Made by a program: the position numbers and the translations under genes. Below are positions 2,538 to 26,361 of a stretch of DNA of 64,000 nt, piece after piece. How positions within the stretch are numbered: position 1 is the stretch's first letter; each line of letters opens with the position of its first letter. This DNA is from Rhizobium jaguaris. GTDB lineage: Bacteria > Pseudomonadota > Alphaproteobacteria > Rhizobiales > Rhizobiaceae. The notes under the pieces are model-generated. The model ran no database searches. It had not been told where the DNA came from and was given only the letters and a program-made list of their open reading frames with translations. The stretch is taken from assembly GCF_003627755.1 (NCBI RefSeq), contig NZ_CP032694.1:2905501-2969500 (forward strand). Reading direction: 5' to 3'.

Positions 2538-4033
2538 CCGACAGCATCCTTTCCGGCGCCGTCGCCCGCCCCTCCCAGATAACCAAATTGCTCGCCTGGC
2601 GTCGCGCGTGGCTGCAGATGGATAAGAACCCGGATATGATCCGCTTCGCCGGCACGCTTCGCGGCTCTGTGGTCATCCACGCTGCCTTCTTCGCCGTCCT
2701 CCTTCTCGCCGGTCTCGACATCGGTTTCGGCACGGCCGCGATAGCGATTGCCGGACTGATCGGTTGTGCCCTTCTTCCATCGAAGCGCACTCTGGTCATC
2801 GCAGCCTCCACCTTGTTGTTCCTGATCATCCGGCCATTTCACGCCTTTGAATTGGCTGAAATCCCGCCTGCCATCATCGAACGTCTTGGCCTAACCGGCA
2901 CCAGCCCGAAAATCCTGGCCTGGGCCGCGACCGCTTTGTTCATGATCGCCGCATGGATCGCCCTTTATTTGCAGGGCCGCTACCGCGAGACGCTCGCGGC
3001 GAAGCGCCCGCTGTTGTCCATGGTCGTCCTCTTCTGGCTGCTTGTGCTTATCGCCGTTTCCAACACGCTGCCGGCGCTGCCGCTGGCGTTCCTCTGGACC
3101 TTCCTGGCCGCGTTCGCTTCCGGATTCTGGTTTCTCGCCTATGCGCTGGCAGATCAGAAAGCGAAGGACCCGACACGCAACGGCATTCGCCTCGGCCTGT
3201 TTCACCCCTTCTGGGAGGGGCCGCCATTGCCGACGGGCAAAGGCGCGGCCTATCTGAAGAAGTTCGAGGCCAAGGATGAAACCAGCCTTGCCGTCACTCG
3301 GCTGAAAGCGCTGAAGCTCCTTGTCTGGGGCGTGCTGCTCACCGCCCTGTACCTCGCGCTGACGAAGCTGATCAATGGCTATGCCGGCTTGCCGACCCTG
3401 CATCGCGCCATGGAATTATATGCAGCCGGCACGCCGGTTCCCGCTTACGAAGCCTGGGCGGCGTTGGCCGTCCATTATCTGCTCGATATCGCTTTCATTG
3501 CCGGCTGGAGCCATGTTGTGGTGGCGATCGTGCGCATGGCGGGCTACGCCATTCCTCGCAATACCGCCCGCCCCCTTTCGTCCCGCACGCTCGCCGAATT
3601 CTGGAACCGTTATTACTTCTACTTCAAGGAACTGCTGGTCGATTTCTTCTTCTTTCCGGCTTTCCTGCGCTACTTCAAGAAGCAACCCAAGCTGCGAGTG
3701 GCCTTCGCGACGCTCTGTGCCGCGTCCTTCGGCAATGTGCTTTTCCACTTTACCTGGAACCTCAATCTGACGCTCGATTATGGCTTGCTCGGCGCCATGC
3801 AGCATTTCGAAAGCTATGCGGTTTATTCGCTGCTGCTTGCCGGCGGATTGATCATCTCGCAGTTGAGAGGCCGCAAACCAAAGCCGGAAGACGGCTTCCT
3901 GCGCTATGAGGTCTTGCCGCGCATCGGTGTCGGCCTGTTCTTCTGTCTCATCGCTGTCTTCAACGAGACGCCGGAGCTCTTCACGATGCACGATCGCATC
4001 GCCTTCTTTTTCAGCCTGTTTGGAGTGATGTGA
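2534..4033 (+). CDS. Polytopic membrane protein, MBOAT/DltB-like
   Basis: This 499-residue protein is rich in hydrophobic segments (about ten). Near residue 356 it has FWNRYYFYFKELLVDFF, which resembles the conserved FWRRWH...F-DYLY region of membrane-bound O-acyltransferases. A histidine near residue 405 lies in FGNVLFHFTWN, where the MBOAT catalytic histidine would be expected. Between an adenylation enzyme and a carrier protein, it would correspond to DltB, which moves the carrier-bound amino acid across the inner membrane. The similarity is weak and read by eye, so a family outside MBOAT remains possible. It overlaps the upstream gene by 4 bases and the downstream carrier gene by 4 bases, so the three form one tightly coupled operon. 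Confidence 0.65.
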   Translation: MTDSILSGAVARPSQITKLLAWRRAWLQMDKNPDMIRFAGTLRGSVVIHAAFFAVLLLAGLDIGFGTAAIAIAGLIGCALLPSKRTLVIAASTLLFLIIRPFHAFELAEIPPAIIERLGLTGTSPKILAWAATALFMIAAWIALYLQGRYRETLAAKRPLLSMVVLFWLLVLIAVSNTLPALPLAFLWTFLAAFASGFWFLAYALADQKAKDPTRNGIRLGLFHPFWEGPPLPTGKGAAYLKKFEAKDETSLAVTRLKALKLLVWGVLLTALYLALTKLINGYAGLPTLHRAMELYAAGTPVPAYEAWAALAVHYLLDIAFIAGWSHVVVAIVRMAGYAIPRNTARPLSSRTLAEFWNRYYFYFKELLVDFFFFPAFLRYFKKQPKLRVAFATLCAASFGNVLFHFTWNLNLTLDYGLLGAMQHFESYAVYSLLLAGGLIISQLRGRKPKPEDGFLRYEVLPRIGVGLFFCLIAVFNETPELFTMHDRIAFFFSLFGVM

Positions 4034-4284
4034 TGACCATCATGGTGATCGACAAATTGCGCGCCACCGTCGGCAACCTGCTTGCCGCCCGCGGCGACCG
4101 CAACCCATTTTCCGAAACCGAACCTCTCTTCACAACCGGTCGCCTCGATTCGCTGGCCGCAACGGAACTGATCGTCGCGCTTGAACAGGATTACGGCCTC
4201 GATCTGGCGACCGCTGATTTCGATATTTCTGCGCTCGATACGCTGCGCGATCTTTCAAAGCTGGTGGCGGCCCTACATTCGTAG
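4030..4284 (+). CDS. Acyl/aminoacyl carrier protein, DltC-like
   Basis: The 84-residue protein has the size and fold signature of a carrier protein. The motif GRLDSLAATEL contains Ser41, the expected 4'-phosphopantetheine attachment site, and the C-terminal region is rich in helix-forming residues. It is the last gene of the three-gene operon, with its start overlapping the MBOAT-like gene. It most likely carries the amino acid activated by the enzyme encoded at 966. Position 3 of the DSL motif is conserved as in true carriers, so it should be active. No DltD-type transferase follows; the next gene (fhs) is on the other strand. Confidence 0.85.
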   Translation: MMTIMVIDKLRATVGNLLAARGDRNPFSETEPLFTTGRLDSLAATELIVALEQDYGLDLATADFDISALDTLRDLSKLVAALHS

Positions 4285-4346
4285 ATCAGCGCAGTCCTTG
4301 GGAAACTTTGACCATCGCGGCAAGCCAGCTGCACCAGAATCAGAAC

Positions 4347-6050
4347 TTAAAACAATCCCTCGATGTATCCATGATCATTGAGGAAAATCCGTTCTGCCGC
4401 CGGTGATTTCGGCAGGCCCGGCATGGTCATGATCTCGCCGGTGATGGCAACGACGAAGCCGGCCCCGGCGGACAGACGCACTTCGCGAACAGGCACGATA
4501 TGCCCTTCCGGCGCGCCGCGGACATTCGGGTCCGTCGAGAAGGAATATTGCGTCTTCGCCATGCAGACCGGCAGATGGCCGTAACCCTGATCCTCCCAGG
4601 AACGCAACTGGTCGCGCACGGCCTTGTCGGCAGTCACCTCGCCGGCGTGATAGATCTTTGAAGCGACGATCTCGATCTTTTCGAGCAAGGAGAGATTGTC
4701 GGGATAGAGCGGCTGGAACTTCGCTTGGTTGGATTCGGCAAGCTCAACCACCTTATAGGCAAGCTCTTCGATCCCCGCAGACCCCTCGGCCCAATGGCGA
4801 CAAAGGATCGCCTCGGCGCCGAGCCGCGCCACATAATCCTTCAGCGCCTCGATCTCCGCATCCGTATCAGAGATGAAGTGATTGATCGCAACGACGACGG
4901 GCACGCCGAATTTGCGGACATTGGCGACATGCCGGCCAAGATTCGCGCAGCCCTTCACCAGGGCTGCGACATTCTCCTGGCCGAGATCGTCCCTCTTGAT
5001 GCCGCCATTCATTTTCAGCGCCCGCACCGTCGCGACGATGACGGCCGCAGCCGGCGAAAGCCCGGCCTTGCGGCACTTGATGTCGAAGAATTTTTCCGCG
5101 CCGAGATCGGCGCCAAAGCCCGCTTCCGTCACAACGTAGTCGCCGAGCTTCAGCGCCGTGCGCGTGGCGATCACCGAATTGCATCCATGGGCGATGTTGG
5201 CGAAGGGGCCGCCATGCACTAAGGCCGGATTGTTCTCCAGCGTCTGTACCAGATTCGGCTGCATCGCATCCTTGAGCAGCACCGCCATGGCGCCGTCAGC
5301 TTTGAGATCGCGGGCATAAACAGGCGTGCGGTCGCGACGATAGCCGATGATGATGTCGCCAAGCCGCTTTTCCAGGTCCTTCAGATCAGAAGCCAGGCAG
5401 AGGATCGCCATGACTTCAGAGGCGACTGTGATGTCGAAACCGCCCTCACGCGGAAAACCGTTGGCCACCCCGCCGAGCGAGGCGACGATATCGCGCAGCG
5501 CTCGGTCGTTCATGTCCATGGCGCGCCGCCAGGTGATACGGCGGACATCGATATTCTGCTCGTTGCCCCAATAGATGTGATTGTCGATTAATGCCGCTAA
5601 TAGATTGTGCGCCGACGTAACGGCGTGGAAATCGCCGGTGAAATGCAGATTGATGTCTTCCATCGGAATGACCTGCGCATAACCGCCGCCCGCCGCCCCA
5701 CCCTTGACGCCAAAGCAGGGTCCAAGCGAAGCCTCACGCACGCAGACAATCGCCCTCTTGCCGATGCGGTTCAGCCCGTCGCCAAGCCCGACGGTCGTGG
5801 TCGTCTTCCCTTCACCGGCCGGCGTCGGATTGATGGCAGTGACCAGGATCAGCTTGCCGTCCTTCTTATCTTTCTGCGCGGCAATGAAATGAGCGCCGAT
5901 TTTCGCCTTGTCATGCCCATAAGGCGCAAGATCTTCGGGCGGAATGCCGAGCTTGGCGCCGATCTCGACGATCGGCAATTTCTTCGCGGCACGCGCGATT
6001 TCTATATCGGATTTCACCGCTGCCATAAGACCCGTTCCCGCCCTGAACAT
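4347..6050 (-). CDS. fhs: Formate--tetrahydrofolate ligase
   Basis: The enzyme makes 10-formyl-THF from formate, THF and ATP in the cytoplasm, feeding purine synthesis and one-carbon metabolism. The P-loop-like stretch [14 protein letters not shown] and the family motif [33 protein letters not shown] (in part) are clear. The chosen ATG at 6050 is preceded by AGGAGG with 9-base spacing. Family proteins usually begin at the internal [10 protein letters not shown] (ATG at 6026, 559 residues), which has a weaker ribosome site, so the start is uncertain by 8 residues. The frame also stays open upstream of 6050. The gene is monocistronic and convergent with the dlt-like operon. Confidence 0.97.
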
Positions 6051-20856: not shown

Positions 20857-21225
20857 TAGCCAAAATTGGCTCTAAGTATCCGAGGCAGGATCTTTTCGGA
20901 AAAGATTATTCCAACCTTAAGATCCGGCCGCTTTCATTACCACATATATAATTGATTTGGCTGGCAAATTTCCCAATTTGCCAGCCTTTTCGCGTTAGGC
21001 GCTCACCCTTGGATTAGCCCATGCGGCAAGGTGGCATCGCTGCGGGCAGCAATATATCGCACGAGACAGAACCAAAATGAAACCACGATGGACCACCCGT
21101 CATCTTCGGCGCCCACCTTTGTCTTGACGCCAAGAGGCCGGCTGATAATTTGACCGGGCAGTAAATAATCACGCGGTTCCACGCCGCGATCGGGAAATGG
21201 CCCCCGAATGGCCATGGAGAACAGC
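20857..21225 (+). other. Non-coding stretch between nolR-like and aminotransferase genes
   Basis: About 370 bases without a convincing gene. It contains the terminator at 20959-20990, and the second half probably carries the aminotransferase promoter. A minus-strand frame at 21003-21302 runs into the aminotransferase start and shows no family features. Confidence 0.6.
20959..20990 (+). terminator. Rho-independent terminator after nolR-like gene
   Basis: GGCTGGCAAATT and AATTTGCCAGCC form a perfect 12-bp stem around TCCC, followed by TTTT. It is about 100 bases after the stop codon. Confidence 0.85.
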
Positions 21226-22554
21226 ATGTCCGACCGTTTGAATGCCACCCCCAACGATCTGCGCGCATTTTGGATGCCGTTTACCGCCAATCGCCAGTTC
21301 AAGAAGGAACCGCGCCTCTTCGTCGGCGCTAAGGATATGTATTATACCACCCATGACGGGCGGCAGGTACTGGACGGAACGGCAGGCCTGTGGTGCGTGA
21401 ATGCCGGCCACTGCCGGCCGAAGATCACTGAGGCCATTCGCCAGCAGGCGGGCGAACTCGACTATGCACCGGCCTTTCAGCTCGGCCATCCCAAGGCCTT
21501 CGAGCTGGCGAACCGGCTGGTGGATATCGCGTCCGAAGGCATGGACCATGTTCTTTATACCAATTCGGGTTCTGAATCGGTCGAGACCGCACTCAAGGTG
21601 GCGCTTGCCTATCATCGCGTGAAGGGCAACGGCTCGCGCTTCCGCCTCATCGGCCGCGAGCGCGGCTATCACGGCGTCAACTTCGGTGGCATCTCCGTCG
21701 GCGGCATCGTCTCCAACCGTAAGATGTTTGGTACGCTGCTCACCGGCGTCGACCATATGCCCCACACGCATGTTCCCGGCAAGAATGCCTTCACCCGTGG
21801 CGAACCCGAGCACGGCGGCGACATCGCCAGCGAGCTGGAGCGTATCGTCACCCTGCATGACCCCTCGACCATCGCTGCCGTCATCGTCGAGCCGGTCGCT
21901 GGTTCCACCGGCGTATTGATCCCACCGAAGGGCTATCTGCAGAAGCTGCGCGAAATCTGCACCAAGCACGGCATCCTGCTGATCTTCGACGAAGTCATCA
22001 CCGGTTTCGGCCGCCTCGGCACCCCCTTCGCCGCGCAATATTACGACGTGAAGCCGGACATGATCACCACAGCCAAGGGTCTGACCAACGGCGTCATCCC
22101 GATGGGCGCGGTCTTTGTGACTTCGGAAATTCACGACGCCTTCATGCAGGGACCCGAGCACATGATCGAGTTCTTCCATGGCTACACCTATTCCGGCAAC
22201 CCGATTGCCTCTGCCGCTGCTCTCGCCACGCTCGATACCTACAAGGAGGAAGGCCTGTTGACGCGTGCTGCCGAGCTTTCGGACTACTGGGCCGATGCGC
22301 TGCACTCCCTGAAGGACTGCCCGAACGTCATCGACATCCGAAACACCGGCCTGATCGGCGCCATCGAGCTCGACCCCATCGCCGGCGAACCCACGAAGCG
22401 CGCCTTCACTGCCTTCCTCAAGGCCTACGAAAAGGGCCTGCTGATCCGCACCACCGGCGATATCATCGCGCTCTCGCCGCCGCTGATCATCGAGAAGCAC
22501 CATATCGACGAACTCTTCGGCAAGCTCAGGGATATCTTGCAGAATAATATCTAG
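21226..22554 (+). CDS. Class III omega-amino acid--pyruvate aminotransferase
   Basis: A 442-residue PLP enzyme. The class III signature is seen in ILLIFDEVITGFGRLG, followed by the Schiff-base lysine in TTAKGLTNGVIPMGAV; the cofactor site GSESVETALKVALAYH is near residue 117. It resembles beta-alanine/omega-amino acid:pyruvate transaminases, which convert beta-alanine or other omega-amino acids to semialdehydes with alanine as product. The start MSDRLNATPND at 21226 has GGAG six bases upstream. Frames from 21208 and 21214 are also possible. No semialdehyde dehydrogenase gene is adjacent. Confidence 0.9.
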   Translation: MSDRLNATPNDLRAFWMPFTANRQFKKEPRLFVGAKDMYYTTHDGRQVLDGTAGLWCVNAGHCRPKITEAIRQQAGELDYAPAFQLGHPKAFELANRLVDIASEGMDHVLYTNSGSESVETALKVALAYHRVKGNGSRFRLIGRERGYHGVNFGGISVGGIVSNRKMFGTLLTGVDHMPHTHVPGKNAFTRGEPEHGGDIASELERIVTLHDPSTIAAVIVEPVAGSTGVLIPPKGYLQKLREICTKHGILLIFDEVITGFGRLGTPFAAQYYDVKPDMITTAKGLTNGVIPMGAVFVTSEIHDAFMQGPEHMIEFFHGYTYSGNPIASAAALATLDTYKEEGLLTRAAELSDYWADALHSLKDCPNVIDIRNTGLIGAIELDPIAGEPTKRAFTAFLKAYEKGLLIRTTGDIIALSPPLIIEKHHIDELFGKLRDILQNNI

Positions 22555-22599
22555 TTCGACTTTTCATGGGCGCTATCCGATCCGCGAACTCGAAAAATT

Positions 22600-22619
22600 C
22601 CCTCTCCCCGCCTGCGGGG
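22600..22619. repeat. Left half of palindromic repeat copy 1, cut by IS4 element
   Basis: CCCTCTCCCC-GCCTGCGGGG is the first half of a palindrome. Its second half and tail (AGAGGG, CTAGGG, TGAGGGGC) lie at 24049-24068 on the other side of the IS. Removing the IS and one copy of the 10-bp duplication restores a 12-bp stem with a 2-base centre plus a 14-base tail, matching the copies at 24492-24531 and 24590-24631. Confidence 0.85.
22610..22619. repeat. Left target-site duplication of the IS4-family element
   Basis: GCCTGCGGGG is repeated exactly at 24039-24048, directly outside both IS ends. Ten bases is within the range for IS4-family elements. Confidence 0.85.
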
Positions 22620-24038
22620 CTATGGCATTCACACATTTAGAATTGCCTATGGAGTGGAGTTCTGATTCTTCTGCAAAAAGCAGGAGAATTAAGCGATGGG
22701 TGATTTGGGCCTGGGACGGTTTGGCGACCGTCGCTTGGAAAAAGGGGGGTGTTCTTGCTGGAGCGCCTTGTTGAGACGGCTGGCCAGGGGATGCGGGTGC
22801 GCAAGCTCGGCGGCAATCGGGCTGGAGAGATCCGCTTGAGCCGGTTTTTGCGCAATGATGCGGTTGATCCGCAGGCGATGATCGATGCGGCGGCGTTGCG
22901 CACGGCCAGCCGTTGCGCGGATCGGCATATCTTGGCCATTCAGGATACGACGGTGGTGCGCTCCGGCGGCGGTGGCGGTCTTTACCTGCATGCGATGATC
23001 GGGGTCGATGCGGATGATGGCGCGATCATCGGCGCGATCCATGGGCAGTTTTTAAGCCGCGACAAAGGCAAGCGCGGCACGCAGCGCGCGCGTCCGATCG
23101 AGGAGAAGGAAAGCTATCGCTGGCTGGAGGGCGCCGACCGCGCCGCGCAGGTTTGCGCGGCCGCGCGCCACATCACCGTCATCGCCGACCGCGAAAGCGA
23201 TATCTACGAGGCCTTCACCCGACGGCCCGCCAATGTCGATCTCGTCATCCGGATGGCTTGGGATCGCAGCTTCGGTAAGGACCAGCCGTCGCTGTTGGCC
23301 ATGGCGGACGCCTTGCCGGTTGCGGCAAGCCTGGCCTTCACGCTGCCGGCCAAGCCGGGCCGCAAAGAGCGCGACGCGCAGTTGGCGATCCGCTTCAGTG
23401 CGGTGACATTGCCGCGCCCGAAGAATGGCATCTACAACAACGTCCCGGATGGTGTGCGCCTCTTTCTGGTGGATGTGCGCGAGAGCGCACCGCCGCCGGG
23501 CGAGACGCCGATCCATTGGCGGCTGCTGACAACCTACGAGGTGTCGGATGCAGGCCAGGCGGCGGCGGTCATCGCCCTTTATCGCCGCCGCTGGGCAATC
23601 GAGCAATTGTTCCGCACCCTGAAGACGCAGGGCTTTGATATCGAAGCCCTGCGCATCGAGGACGAGGTGCCGCTGAGCAATCTAGTGATGGCCGCCTTCG
23701 TCGCGGCCGTGATTGTGCAGCAACTGGTGCATTCGCGCGACGGCGCTCCTCCGGGCGGCGCCTTGCGCCCCATCGAAGACGCCTTCGAGCCGAGCGACCG
23801 GCCGCTTCTGGAAGCCTTCAGCGCCAAGCTGGAGGGCACGACCGCCAGACAGAAGAACCCTCATCCCAAAGGCTCGCTGGCCTATGCCGCCTGGGTCTGC
23901 GCCCGCCTCGGCGGTTGGACCGGCTACTACGGCAAGCCGGGCCCAATCGTCATGCTCGACGGCTGGCAACAGTTCCAAGCAGCCAAGCGCGGCGTATCCC
24001 TTCTCCTCTCCGCTTGCGACTATGTGTGAATCTAATAG
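22620..24038 (+). mobile_element. IS4-family insertion sequence, 1,419 bp
   Basis: The ends are imperfect inverted repeats of 17 bp: CTATGGCATTCACACAT on the left (22620-22636) and, on the complementary strand, CTATTAGATTCACACAT on the right (24022-24038), identical at 14 of 17 positions. Both ends are flanked by the direct repeat GCCTGCGGGG. A single transposase region fills the element. The exact duplication suggests a recent insertion. It lies within a palindromic repeat next to a DUF559 gene. Confidence 0.88.
22696..24029 (+). CDS. IS4-family transposase, needs a -1 frameshift
   Basis: The DDE transposase has IQDTTVV (first D), TVIADRESDIYEAF (second D) and the C-terminal YRRRWAIEQLFRTLK signature with the catalytic Glu. 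The main frame (from GTG 22749, 426 residues) lacks the start of the protein. A frame one base ahead starts at ATG 22696 with AGGAG nine bases upstream and encodes MGDLGLGRFGDRRLEKG, which looks like the missing IS4 N-terminus. That frame ends at the TGA at 22837. The two meet at a run of five A and six G (22739-22749), so a -1 slip joins them into about 444 residues. This may be programmed slippage or a one-base mutation that inactivated the element. Confidence 0.82.
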
Positions 24039-24048
24039 GCCTGCGGGG
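24039..24048. repeat. Right target-site duplication of the IS4-family element
   Basis: Exact copy of 22610-22619 (GCCTGCGGGG), adjacent to the right inverted repeat. Confidence 0.85.
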
Positions 24049-24068
24049 AGAGGGCTAGGGTGAGGGGC
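24049..24068. repeat. Right half of palindromic repeat copy 1 with tail
   Basis: AGAGGG completes the palindrome begun at 22600, followed by the tail CTAGGGTGAGGGGC. The tail points towards the DUF559 gene. Confidence 0.8.
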
Positions 24069-24087
24069 TTTCCACGGGGACAATAAA

Positions 24088-24492
24088 ATGCGGGGGCCGG
24101 AGCTAAAGACGACACACCGCGCGCGCAGCCTCCGTCAAGCCGAGAACGATGCCGAAGCAAAACTTTGGTCGGAAGTCCGAAACCGACGACTAAACAATTT
24201 CAAATTCGTTCGGCAGTTTCCGATTGGTCCATATTTCGCGGACTTTGCGTGCCGCGAGCGGTGCCTTGTTGTCGAAATCGACGGCAGCCAGCATGTGGAT
24301 AATAAACACGATGGAGTTCGCGATGAGTTCATGATTGCCGAAGGCTGGTCAGTTGCCCGCTTTTGGAATGTTGATGTGTTAACATCTATGCCCTCGGTTC
24401 TCGAAACTATCGTGGCTATTTGTGATGGCAGATTAACCGAAGCTGTGTTGGCTCGCGATTTTAAGTTTCTTCCGGCAGCATCTCTGAAATAG
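24088..24492 (+). CDS. DUF559 (Vsr-like) endonuclease-domain protein
   Basis: The 134-residue protein is a compact DUF559 domain with the restriction-endonuclease/Vsr-like fold. It shows LWSEVRNRRLNNFKFVRQFPIG, then YFADFAC with Asp52 and LVVEIDGSQHVD with Glu63, Asp65 and His69, the expected metal site. No accessory domain is attached. Biological role in the family is not established. The gene is bracketed by inverted copies of a palindromic repeat (left copy interrupted by the IS4 element, right copy at 24492-24531), with the repeat tails facing inward. Its stop codon touches the right repeat. Base composition is poorer in GC than the neighbours, which hints at transfer. Confidence 0.88.
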   Translation: MRGPELKTTHRARSLRQAENDAEAKLWSEVRNRRLNNFKFVRQFPIGPYFADFACRERCLVVEIDGSQHVDNKHDGVRDEFMIAEGWSVARFWNVDVLTSMPSVLETIVAICDGRLTEAVLARDFKFLPAASLK

Positions 24493-24531
24493 CCCCTCAC
24501 CCCCGCCCTCTCCCCGCATGCGGGGAGAGGG
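24492..24531. repeat. Palindromic repeat copy 2, inverted orientation
   Basis: A tail (GCCCCTCACCCCCG) leads into a perfect 26-bp palindrome at 24506-24531, arms CCCTCTCCCCGCA and TGCGGGGAGAGGG. Compared with copy 1 it is inverted, so the two copies form terminal inverted repeats around the DUF559 gene. Confidence 0.85.
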
Positions 24532-24589
24532 AGTCTGTCGAGACTCGCGGAACCGAGAAACACTGCTCTATCAACAAATTCGGACAGAT

Positions 24590-24631
24590 CCCCTCTCCCC
24601 GTAAAACGGGGAGAGGGCTAGAGTGAGGGGC
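24590..24631. repeat. Palindromic repeat copy 3
   Basis: CCCTCTCCCCGT and ACGGGGAGAGGG form a 12-bp stem with an AAA loop, followed by the tail CTAGAGTGAGGGGC, in the same orientation as copy 1. It lies about 30 bases before the adenine deaminase start, so it may also end up in that message's leader. Confidence 0.85.
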
Positions 24632-24663
24632 GACACGGAATCACAGCGGATGTGGGAAAAACC

Positions 24664-26361
24664 ATGACCACCAAACTCGAACGCTATATCGACCAGGGCG
24701 TTGGCCGGGAGCCGGCGGATATTGTGCTCAAGGGCGGGCAGTTCTTCGACCTGGTGACGGGGGACCTCGTCGACTCGGATATCGCCATTTGCGGCGATCG
24801 TATCGTCGGCACCTGCGGCACTTACAAAGGCAAAACCGAAATCGACATTTCCGGCAGAATTGTTGTCCCGGGCTTCATCGACACGCATCTGCATATCGAA
24901 TCCTCGCTGGTGACGCCGCATGAGTTCGACCGCTGCGTCCTGCCCTACGGCGTGACCACGGCGATCTGCGATCCGCATGAGGTCGCCAATGTACTTGGTA
25001 CGGAAGGTATCCAGTATTTCCTGGATTCCTCGTTGGAAACCATCATAGACATCCGCGTCCAGCTCTCATCCTGCGTACCCGCAACGCATCTGGAAACATC
25101 GGGCGCCGATCTGCCGATCGAGCGGCTCCTGCCCTTCCGCGACCATCCAAAAGTCATCGGCCTGGCGGAATTTATGAATTTCCCAGGCGTCGTACACAAA
25201 GATCCCATCTGCATGGCCAAACTCGACGCCTTCCAGGGCGGCCATATCGACGGCCATGCGCCGCTGCTGCGCGGCAACGACCTAAACGGCTATCTCGCCG
25301 CCGGCATCCGCACCGAGCATGAATCGACCACTGCCGAGGAAGCTCTCGAAAAGATCCGCAAGGGCATGCATATCCTGGTGCGGGAGGGTTCGGTCTCCAA
25401 GGACCTGCACGCCCTGATGCCGATCCTGACCGAGCGTCTGTCGCCCTATCTGGCGCTTTGCACCGACGATCGCAATCCGCTCGACATCGCCGAACAGGGT
25501 CATCTCGATTACATGATCCGCACGGCCATCGCCCACGGCGTAGGCCCGCTGGCGATCTATCGCGCTGCCTCGATCTCGGCTGCCCGCGCCTTCGGCTTGC
25601 TTGACCGCGGCCTGGTGGCACCCGGCTGGCGTGCCGATCTCGTCATCATCGACAGTCTGGAGAACTGCAAGGCGGAAATCGTTTTCTCGGCGGGCCGGCG
25701 CGTCACCGCGGAGCTCTTCGCCACCCGCAAGCCGGTCGAACCTGTCGGCCTCGACAGCGTCAGGGCACGCCCGATCAACGCCGCCGATTTCGGCGTGCCG
25801 GTCACCGACGGCGAGAGCTCCGTCATCGGTGTCACCCCTGGCAAGATCATCACCGAACATCGCCGTTACAGCCTGCCGGTCAAAGGCAACCAAACCGATA
25901 TCGACCTCGGCAATGACATCATCAAGGTCGCCGTCATCGAGCGGCACGGCAAGAACGGCAATCATGCCAATGGTTTCGTCCAGGGTTTCGGCCTGAAGAA
26001 GGGTGCGATCGCCTCGACGGTCGGTCACGACAGCCACAATATCTGTGTCGTCGGCGTCAGCGAGGACGACATGGCCCGCGCCGCCAACCGCCTTAGCGAA
26101 ATCAACGGCGGTTTCGTCGTCGTCGAGAACGGCATCGTCACCGGCGAAATCGCCCTGCCCGTTGCCGGCCTGATGAGCCTCGAGCCCTATGAAAGCGTGC
26201 GCGATACGCTGCATCATCTGCGTCAGGCGGCTTACGCCCTCGGCGCGACACTGGAAGAGCCCTTCCTGCAACTCGCCTTCTTGCCACTACCGGTCATCCC
26301 GCATCTGAAGATCTCGGACCGGGGCCTTGTCGATGTCGACAAGTTTATGCTGATTGGGTGA
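24664..26361 (+). CDS. ade: Adenine deaminase
   Basis: This 565-residue amidohydrolase converts adenine to hypoxanthine. The metal motif [15 protein letters not shown] is near residue 77 and the family-specific [17 protein letters not shown] near residue 105. HVDGHAPLL-type ([11 protein letters not shown]) and LCTDDRNP motifs follow, then the C-terminal adenine deaminase domain ([12 protein letters not shown]). The ATG at 24664 is the usual family start; a GTG at 24652 in the same frame is less likely. Its product can be oxidised by the xdhABC enzyme encoded at 55-60 kb. The leader contains a palindromic repeat. Confidence 0.95.

Follow-up and report, generated by a model that had tools for sequence, protein, structure and literature searches.

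Why does a small nuclease gene sit between inverted copies of one palindrome? This question is raised by a 64,000-nucleotide stretch of Rhizobium jaguaris DNA (NZ_CP032694.1, positions 2,905,501 to 2,969,500), which we call the window. It carries a gene for a 134-residue DUF559 (PF04480) protein (24088..24492, forward strand), recognized by its Pfam match and predicted to fold like Vsr and I-Bth0305I. A reading of the sequence alone had proposed that, once an IS4-family insertion sequence (IS) is removed, this gene lies between inverted copies of a unit made of a palindrome and a tail, with the tails inward on both sides, the right copy at the stop codon, and a third copy further downstream. 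Every element of that description is present: a left unit in forward orientation, split by the IS (22600..22619 and 24039..24068), a right unit on the reverse strand (24492..24531) that overlaps the final base of the stop codon, and a third unit on the forward strand (24591..24631). Comparison with other genomes makes it practically certain that standalone DUF559 genes are associated with palindromic repeats. By analogy, we propose that they are probably repeat-associated nucleases, with lineages paired to their own families of sequences resembling repetitive extragenic palindromes (REPs), and that they would work as REP-associated tyrosine transposases (RAYTs) do with REP doublets forming hairpins (REPINs).

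Standalone DUF559 genes are associated with palindromic repeats

Two sets of genes were compared. The first combines an order search with further loci, many from the genus of the window and mostly from one order; its 111 gene hits yielded 102 scored genes (95 standalone, 7 multidomain) after two duplicates and loci with short flanks were dropped, and three partial or contig-edge matches plus one same-genus partial match from the order search were not fetched. The second, from a separate scan, holds DUF559 genes in named genomes, 75 after dropping L210 (L and G numbers are our labels for loci and genomes). Because L138 and L146 are the same gene, the sets overlap at least once and are not fully independent. 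Open reading frames (ORFs) from the same stretches served as controls, as did ParE toxin loci, 25 of 30 of which had full flanks.

We took the best inverted alignment between the 300 bp upstream and the 300 bp downstream of each gene. A score of at least 36 was reached by 37 of the 95 standalone genes and by 0 of 179 ORFs of the same stretches. None of the seven DUF559 domains within longer proteins reached it, and pairing one gene's upstream flank with another's downstream flank did so in 66 of 1000 trials. The named set gave 33/76, or 32/75 without L210, whose score of 194 is due to masked N runs, and the ParE loci gave 0/25.

A hairpin test, which asked for a pyrimidine-rich palindrome (stem of at least 8, loop of at most 10) within 200 bp, found one upstream of 82, downstream of 43 and on at least one side of 91 of the 95 genes. 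The corresponding counts were 56, 33 and 61 for the named set of 75; for 219 control ORFs they were 10, 7 and 17, with none on both sides, and the ParE genes again gave 0/25. Outside that order, 16 standalone genes had a palindrome upstream in 12 cases, downstream in 5 and on at least one side in 15. Single plasmid genes from Deinococcus and Synechocystis also have one, so that the occurrence so far is Proteobacteria plus single examples in a cyanobacterium and a Deinococcus. The inverted repeat that flanks the DUF559 gene of L386 is very long (score 200) and differs from the usual units.

The units are also oriented. In both gene sets together, upstream tails point toward the gene in 98 cases and away in 11, and downstream tails point toward it in 52 and away in 12, the remainder being unclassified; a caveat is that the tail motif was written with tails already seen. 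Among the upstream units, 26 had no classifiable tail and 3 matched both senses. The same inverted arrangement recurs in related genomes, a check that the sequence-only reading had named. It had also named an outcome that would count against it, namely repeats equally common and unoriented around unrelated genes, and the result is the opposite (37/95 against 0/179; 91/95 against 17/219; 98:11). Its likening of the locus to a REP plus a nuclease is strongly supported by co-occurrence, polarity and controls.

The repeats form REPIN-like inverted pairs

The palindrome types A, B and C are also dispersed through the genomes as multicopy repeats, in many cases arranged as REPIN-like inverted pairs; those measured span 112–184 bp. 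The clearest pairs have their tails outward and ends such as CCCCTCA...TGAGGGG. Of the 30 exact palindromes in G055, 28 are arranged as 14 pairs with a spacing of about 100 bp. The remaining two stand alone, each at a DUF559 gene, and the three other DUF559 hits have no nearby copy in that list. All 14 fetched pairs of this genome are tails-out and span 151–155 bp between the ends CCCCTCACCC (CCACTCACCC in one) and GGGTGAGGGG. The four C-type pairs fetched from G007 are likewise all tails-out, 166–184 bp long with long inverted ends, and one is at a DUF559 gene. In Rhizobium, pairs of A and B units spaced by about 75 bp are found at no fewer than five of the listed places in each of G007 and G034. 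Inverted pairs in many copies are thus found, as in REPINs, if less clearly in the genome of the window.

At the window locus, the right unit, with its tail GCCCCTCACCC followed by the palindrome, and the third unit, a palindrome followed by its tail, are the left and right halves of a single tails-out inverted pair of 140 bp (24492-24631). The gene therefore sits between a lone left unit and a full right pair. A portion of the inner spacer of this pair (24532..24590), about CTATCAACAAATTCGGACAGATC, recurs in L266, L278, L280 and L282. Genes generally lie beside or between the multicopy inverted pairs. The data do not support, in the form given, the earlier suggestion that gene and terminal inverted repeats make up a tiny mobile cassette: the multicopy unit is the inverted pair, mostly tails-out where cleanly classified.

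Allowing one mismatch, the half-site CCCTCTCCCCG occurs six times in the window, every time exactly and at this locus; shuffled windows average 1.9, and six was reached in 1 of 100 shuffles. The whole genome has 94 exact copies of the half-site, compared with 8 of a reversed control pattern. These A-type half-sites are divided between contig C1 (4.6 Mb), with 91, and contig C2, with 3, of the window's own genome (G000).

Nuclease lineages match repeat families

The DUF559 proteins of 37 same-genus genomes were placed in six lineages by nearest reference; clustering at 60% identity had fused lineages A and B. Lineage A, the window type, adjoins CCCTCTCC units; lineage B, the L002 type, adjoins mostly CCTTCTCC units; lineage C adjoins ATCTCCCC units; and lineages D and E adjoin other palindromes. 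Single genes occasionally have both A and B units (L059, L083), and a unit is absent from one or both sides of some B genes (L040, L049, L051). The sixth lineage, that of L001, has no palindrome upstream; a downstream block, GGCGGGC...GCAATTTC...GGAATTGC, is shared by its members L001, L141, L332, L334, L348 and L345 and is possibly another repeat type.

Repeat copy number follows the lineage present. Copies were counted as exact palindromes of types A, B and C per genome, and p-values are one-sided without multiple-test correction. Before tree correction, carriers of a lineage hold more copies of its own family (A, p=0.0008; B, p=0.013; C, p=0.00014), and p ranges from 0.05 to 0.81 for the six cross-pairs within this set. 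The own pairs hold after tree correction over 36 genomes (A, 0.0027; B, 0.023; C, 0.0029), with p of at least 0.08 for the cross-pairs. Among 130 genes, protein similarity also correlates with similarity of the upstream unit (r=0.49, 0/999 permutations), a correlation partly fed by shared ancestry at the same locus.

Genes and repeats vary between related loci

The window-type gene occurs in at least eight flank groups among 26 loci. In the window, its neighbors are an omega-aminotransferase gene (21208-22554) and an adenine deaminase (ade) gene starting at 24664 or 24652. For this ade locus, 70 copies were fetched, 36 without the aminotransferase in reach were left out, and the window was added, giving 35 rows; the window's own fetched copy was among those excluded because the IS had pushed the aminotransferase out of reach. 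The spacer between the two genes holds the DUF559 gene in 11 rows (broken in one, L288), repeats only in 3, and a short sequence in 21. On the gene tree, the 11 carriers require 10 changes, at least 7 of them on well-supported branches, and carriers are no more clustered than shuffled labels. The short alleles (90-96 bp where printed) diverge from the gene alleles across the whole spacer and have a hairpin of their own, so exact insertion borders are unreadable here. That small hairpin, GCCCCTC...GAGGGGC in the gene-free short alleles (L255-L283), is like the repeat tails without the central palindromes.

Behind a sensor kinase gene, identified by ORF reading, 30 loci were compared: four have the gene and at least four, judged by eye, have neither gene nor repeat. 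Several others (L358, L359, L374) keep repeats and, by eye, what appear to be the first bases of a lost gene. Such leftover single units and gene scraps suggest loss by recombination between flanking copies. Empty counterparts of the kind sought by the sequence-only reading, related genomes with neither gene nor repeats at the same place, are thus found at both the ade and the sensor kinase loci. On Sinorhizobium pSymB, a 112-bp pair is present in S. meliloti ml28 and absent in S. medicae. A search of plasmid records for a DUF559 insertion within one species yielded no clean case: each of the seven Azospirillum records with matching flanks carried the region.

The left unit of the window has a history of its own. 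Its first part holds CCCTCTCCCCG at 22600-22610 and loop sequence, and its second part ends in an arm and the tail CTAGGGTGAGGGGC, directed toward the gene and separated from the gene start by 19 bases. Between them, inside the loop, lies the 1419-bp IS4-family element (22620..24038, forward strand), whose ends are similar inverted sequences, CTATGGCATTCACACAT and CTATTAGATTCACACAT, and whose transposase ORF (22749-24029) matches NCBIfam NF033590 (IS4 family) at 254 bits. The element is bracketed by a 10-bp target duplication, GCCTGCGGGG (22610-22619 and 24039-24048), the second copy of which opens the second part of the unit. The orthologous locus of Rhizobium hainanense (L144) has the identical layout without the IS and thus an unsplit counterpart of this unit. 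An Rfam scan of 22400-24800 gave no matches.

Other palindromes are also broken by IS elements. Besides the window, the sites are L327 (about 3560-4890), L436, L350 and L360. ISRm16, annotated as IS4-like, lies in the repeat beside the DUF559 gene of S. meliloti Ak57, an apparently identical IS end occurs in S. meliloti 1021, and repeats of the phoR-type locus have two breaks of unidentified nature. The palindrome loops look like insertion targets for IS elements.

The DUF559 protein has a predicted Vsr-like fold

The window protein scores 114.4 bits against the Pfam DUF559 model (cut-off 20.6), which places it in the family. Its only other Pfam match, MTES_1575, is below threshold, and the gene is not a Y1 HUH transposase. 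The predicted structure matches the Vsr/I-Bth0305I-like fold across most of the domain, with the homing endonuclease I-Bth0305I as the second-best solved fold; families outside the fold table were not counted as excluded. The prediction agrees with the earlier suggestion of a Vsr-like nuclease. E23, D52, E63, D65 and H69 are among the residues invariant in a 20-sequence alignment. By the NCBIfam Vsr model TIGR00632, the protein does not qualify as a Vsr mismatch endonuclease: the model is not listed for it, and one relative, L039, reaches 19.5 bits against a cut-off of 97.85.

YcjD was earlier assigned to the PD-(D/E)XK superfamily alongside Vsr, as described in PMC1189080, and an account of alphaproteobacteria mentions standalone DUF559 frames (PMC1829167). 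DUF559 segments repeated together with a transposase are described as recombination hot spots in Legionella (PMC12308824).

A model for DUF559 nucleases and their repeats

The observed association, polarity, lineage-to-family matching and presence-absence variation of genes and repeats lead us to the following model. The nuclease would recognize the palindrome, as a hairpin or cruciform, and/or the conserved tail, and would nick or cut beside it. Cutting may then cause pairs to be copied or relocated, and a gene next to a pair would travel with it. We consider it likely that the nuclease acts on these repeats; that it is their mobilizing enzyme we rate at an even chance.

Several observations weigh against this model. 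No binding, cutting or transposition was observed. Many DUF559 genes have a repeat on a single side only, the 6-genome L001 lineage has no such palindromes upstream, and E. coli YcjD scored none. In direct orientation, a score of at least 36 is reached by 24/95 genes but also by 4/179 control ORFs, and the nine adjacent pairs among 20 loci of the window's own genome are of mixed orientation. Once assumed flanking copies (3, 4 and 2) are subtracted, the copy-number link weakens (A, p=0.028; B, p=0.15; C, p=0.010), and B is not significant. Off-family correlations also appear before tree correction (D with B and C, 0.016 and 0.015; E with B, 0.033; L001 with A, 0.034), and D, whose own repeat was not counted, remains correlated with B (0.029) and C (0.016) after it, so general repeat richness may account for part of the copy-number link. 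Orthologous genes at one locus bear different repeat families in Sinorhizobium and Mesorhizobium, so the repeats may track the host and not the enzyme. Finally, the absent pSymB pair has its borders a few bases at most from CCCCTCA and TGAGGGGC. No target duplication is visible, and a pair is also present in S. fredii at this site, so loss is as likely as gain.

Alternative explanations

The main rival, which we regard as unlikely, is a homing-type endonuclease that cuts repeats as landing sites, with repair from a gene-bearing copy inserting the gene and the repeats spreading otherwise. It draws on the rank of I-Bth0305I in the fold comparison and on a published account, concerned with inteins, of an EDxHD homing-type DUF559 gene in the cyanobacterium Thermosynechococcus (PMC9403480). 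The patchy gene presence at the ade locus and the difference in flanking repeat family between genera at one locus also fit it, as do genes between direct copies of long repeat stretches (direct score 155-292; L043, L078, L072, L133, L117, L067, L212 and L158). However, genomes with a lineage hold more copies of the matching repeat, an increase that an enzyme only using existing repeats would not have to produce; one-sided repeats are frequent; and some gene-free alleles have no repeat, though these need not be pre-insertion sites. Homing and repeat mobilization may be one activity seen from two sides.

It is improbable that the palindromes are regulatory hairpins, such as leaders or terminators, conserved by descent and only incidentally like dispersed repeats. 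Most upstream palindromes do stop 20-65 bases short of the start codon, and a copy is found more often upstream than downstream, but the A, B and C types are multicopy elsewhere and often paired, their polarity is mirrored downstream, and the window-type gene bears repeats at several different loci. Slimmer still is the prospect that DUF559 is simply a mismatch nuclease of the Vsr kind, the role proposed for Caulobacter VsrA, and that gene and repeats are unrelated passengers of the same intergenic hot spots. The fold similarity to Vsr speaks for it, as does the report that VsrA, a DUF559 protein, is what induces the SOS response when cells have no cytosine methylase (PMC12907096), but hot-spot passengers would not be expected to give 98:11 polarity or family matching, and ParE genes, which are also small accessory genes, gave 0/25. 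Very improbable is movement in trans by a Y1 (HUH) transposase, RAYT or other, the class of enzyme proposed to move GTAG REPs and REPINs (PMC3116915, PMC3733652). The window's genome has nine Y1 matches, but seven share score and frame length, as for a multi-copy insertion sequence. RAYTs are unlikely here because Y1 matches are absent from G055 and from 28 of the 37 same-genus genomes, and the Y1-free G007, G015, G017, G021, G030 and G032 hold 33-99 copies of their largest counted repeat family.

Relation to known systems and significance

The closest parallel to the proposed repeat-associated nucleases is the REPIN-RAYT (TnpA-REP) system, described as three REPIN groups each adjoining one RAYT (PMC3116915). 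It shares with our loci distinctive single-copy enzyme genes near REPIN clusters, an enzyme-specific repeat group, and inverted extragenic pairs, as set out in the same source. It differs in that the enzyme here is a DUF559, predicted Vsr-like nuclease rather than a Y1 HUH transposase, and that the repeats have a long tail ending in TGAGGGG or similar; by eye, types A, B and C do not have the GTAG tetranucleotide at the palindrome foot. CGTC-tagged REPs are also palindromic and mainly alphaproteobacterial, and are said to lack a dedicated transposase (PMC3733652). However, they are described as having 8-9 bp stems that open with two A-T positions, and short CCA-like tails (PMC3733652), whereas ours, by eye, have C/T-rich stems and tails of at least 14 bases and thus do not belong to that class.

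Vsr and EDxHD homing endonucleases such as I-Bth0305I share the predicted fold and the invariant acidic and histidine residues. Unlike in those systems, the window gene neighbors omega-aminotransferase, adenine deaminase and palindromic repeats, and no adjacent methylase or intein host gene was seen. Rhizobium intergenic mosaic elements (RIME) and Brucella Bru-RS are palindromic intergenic elements of about 100 bp in Rhizobiales; our repeats are likened to them by description rather than sequence, and we know of no nuclease partner for either. We found no published link between DUF559 and such palindromic repeats, in a search that had preprints and most subscription journals outside its reach.

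More tentatively, at slightly under even chances, these loci may represent a widespread, unnamed class of mobile DNA, in which REPIN-type elements are moved by Vsr-like DUF559 nucleases instead of HUH transposases and enzyme lineages co-diversify with repeat families. The pairing with repeats gives DUF559, a domain of unknown function, a function to test. Many bacterial intergenic palindromic repeats have no known mover, and DUF559 is a directly testable candidate for their spread. If the model is true, DUF559 would be a second, unrelated enzyme class in the role of the RAYT transposases, and the missing mobilizing enzyme for a large set of orphan palindromic repeats.
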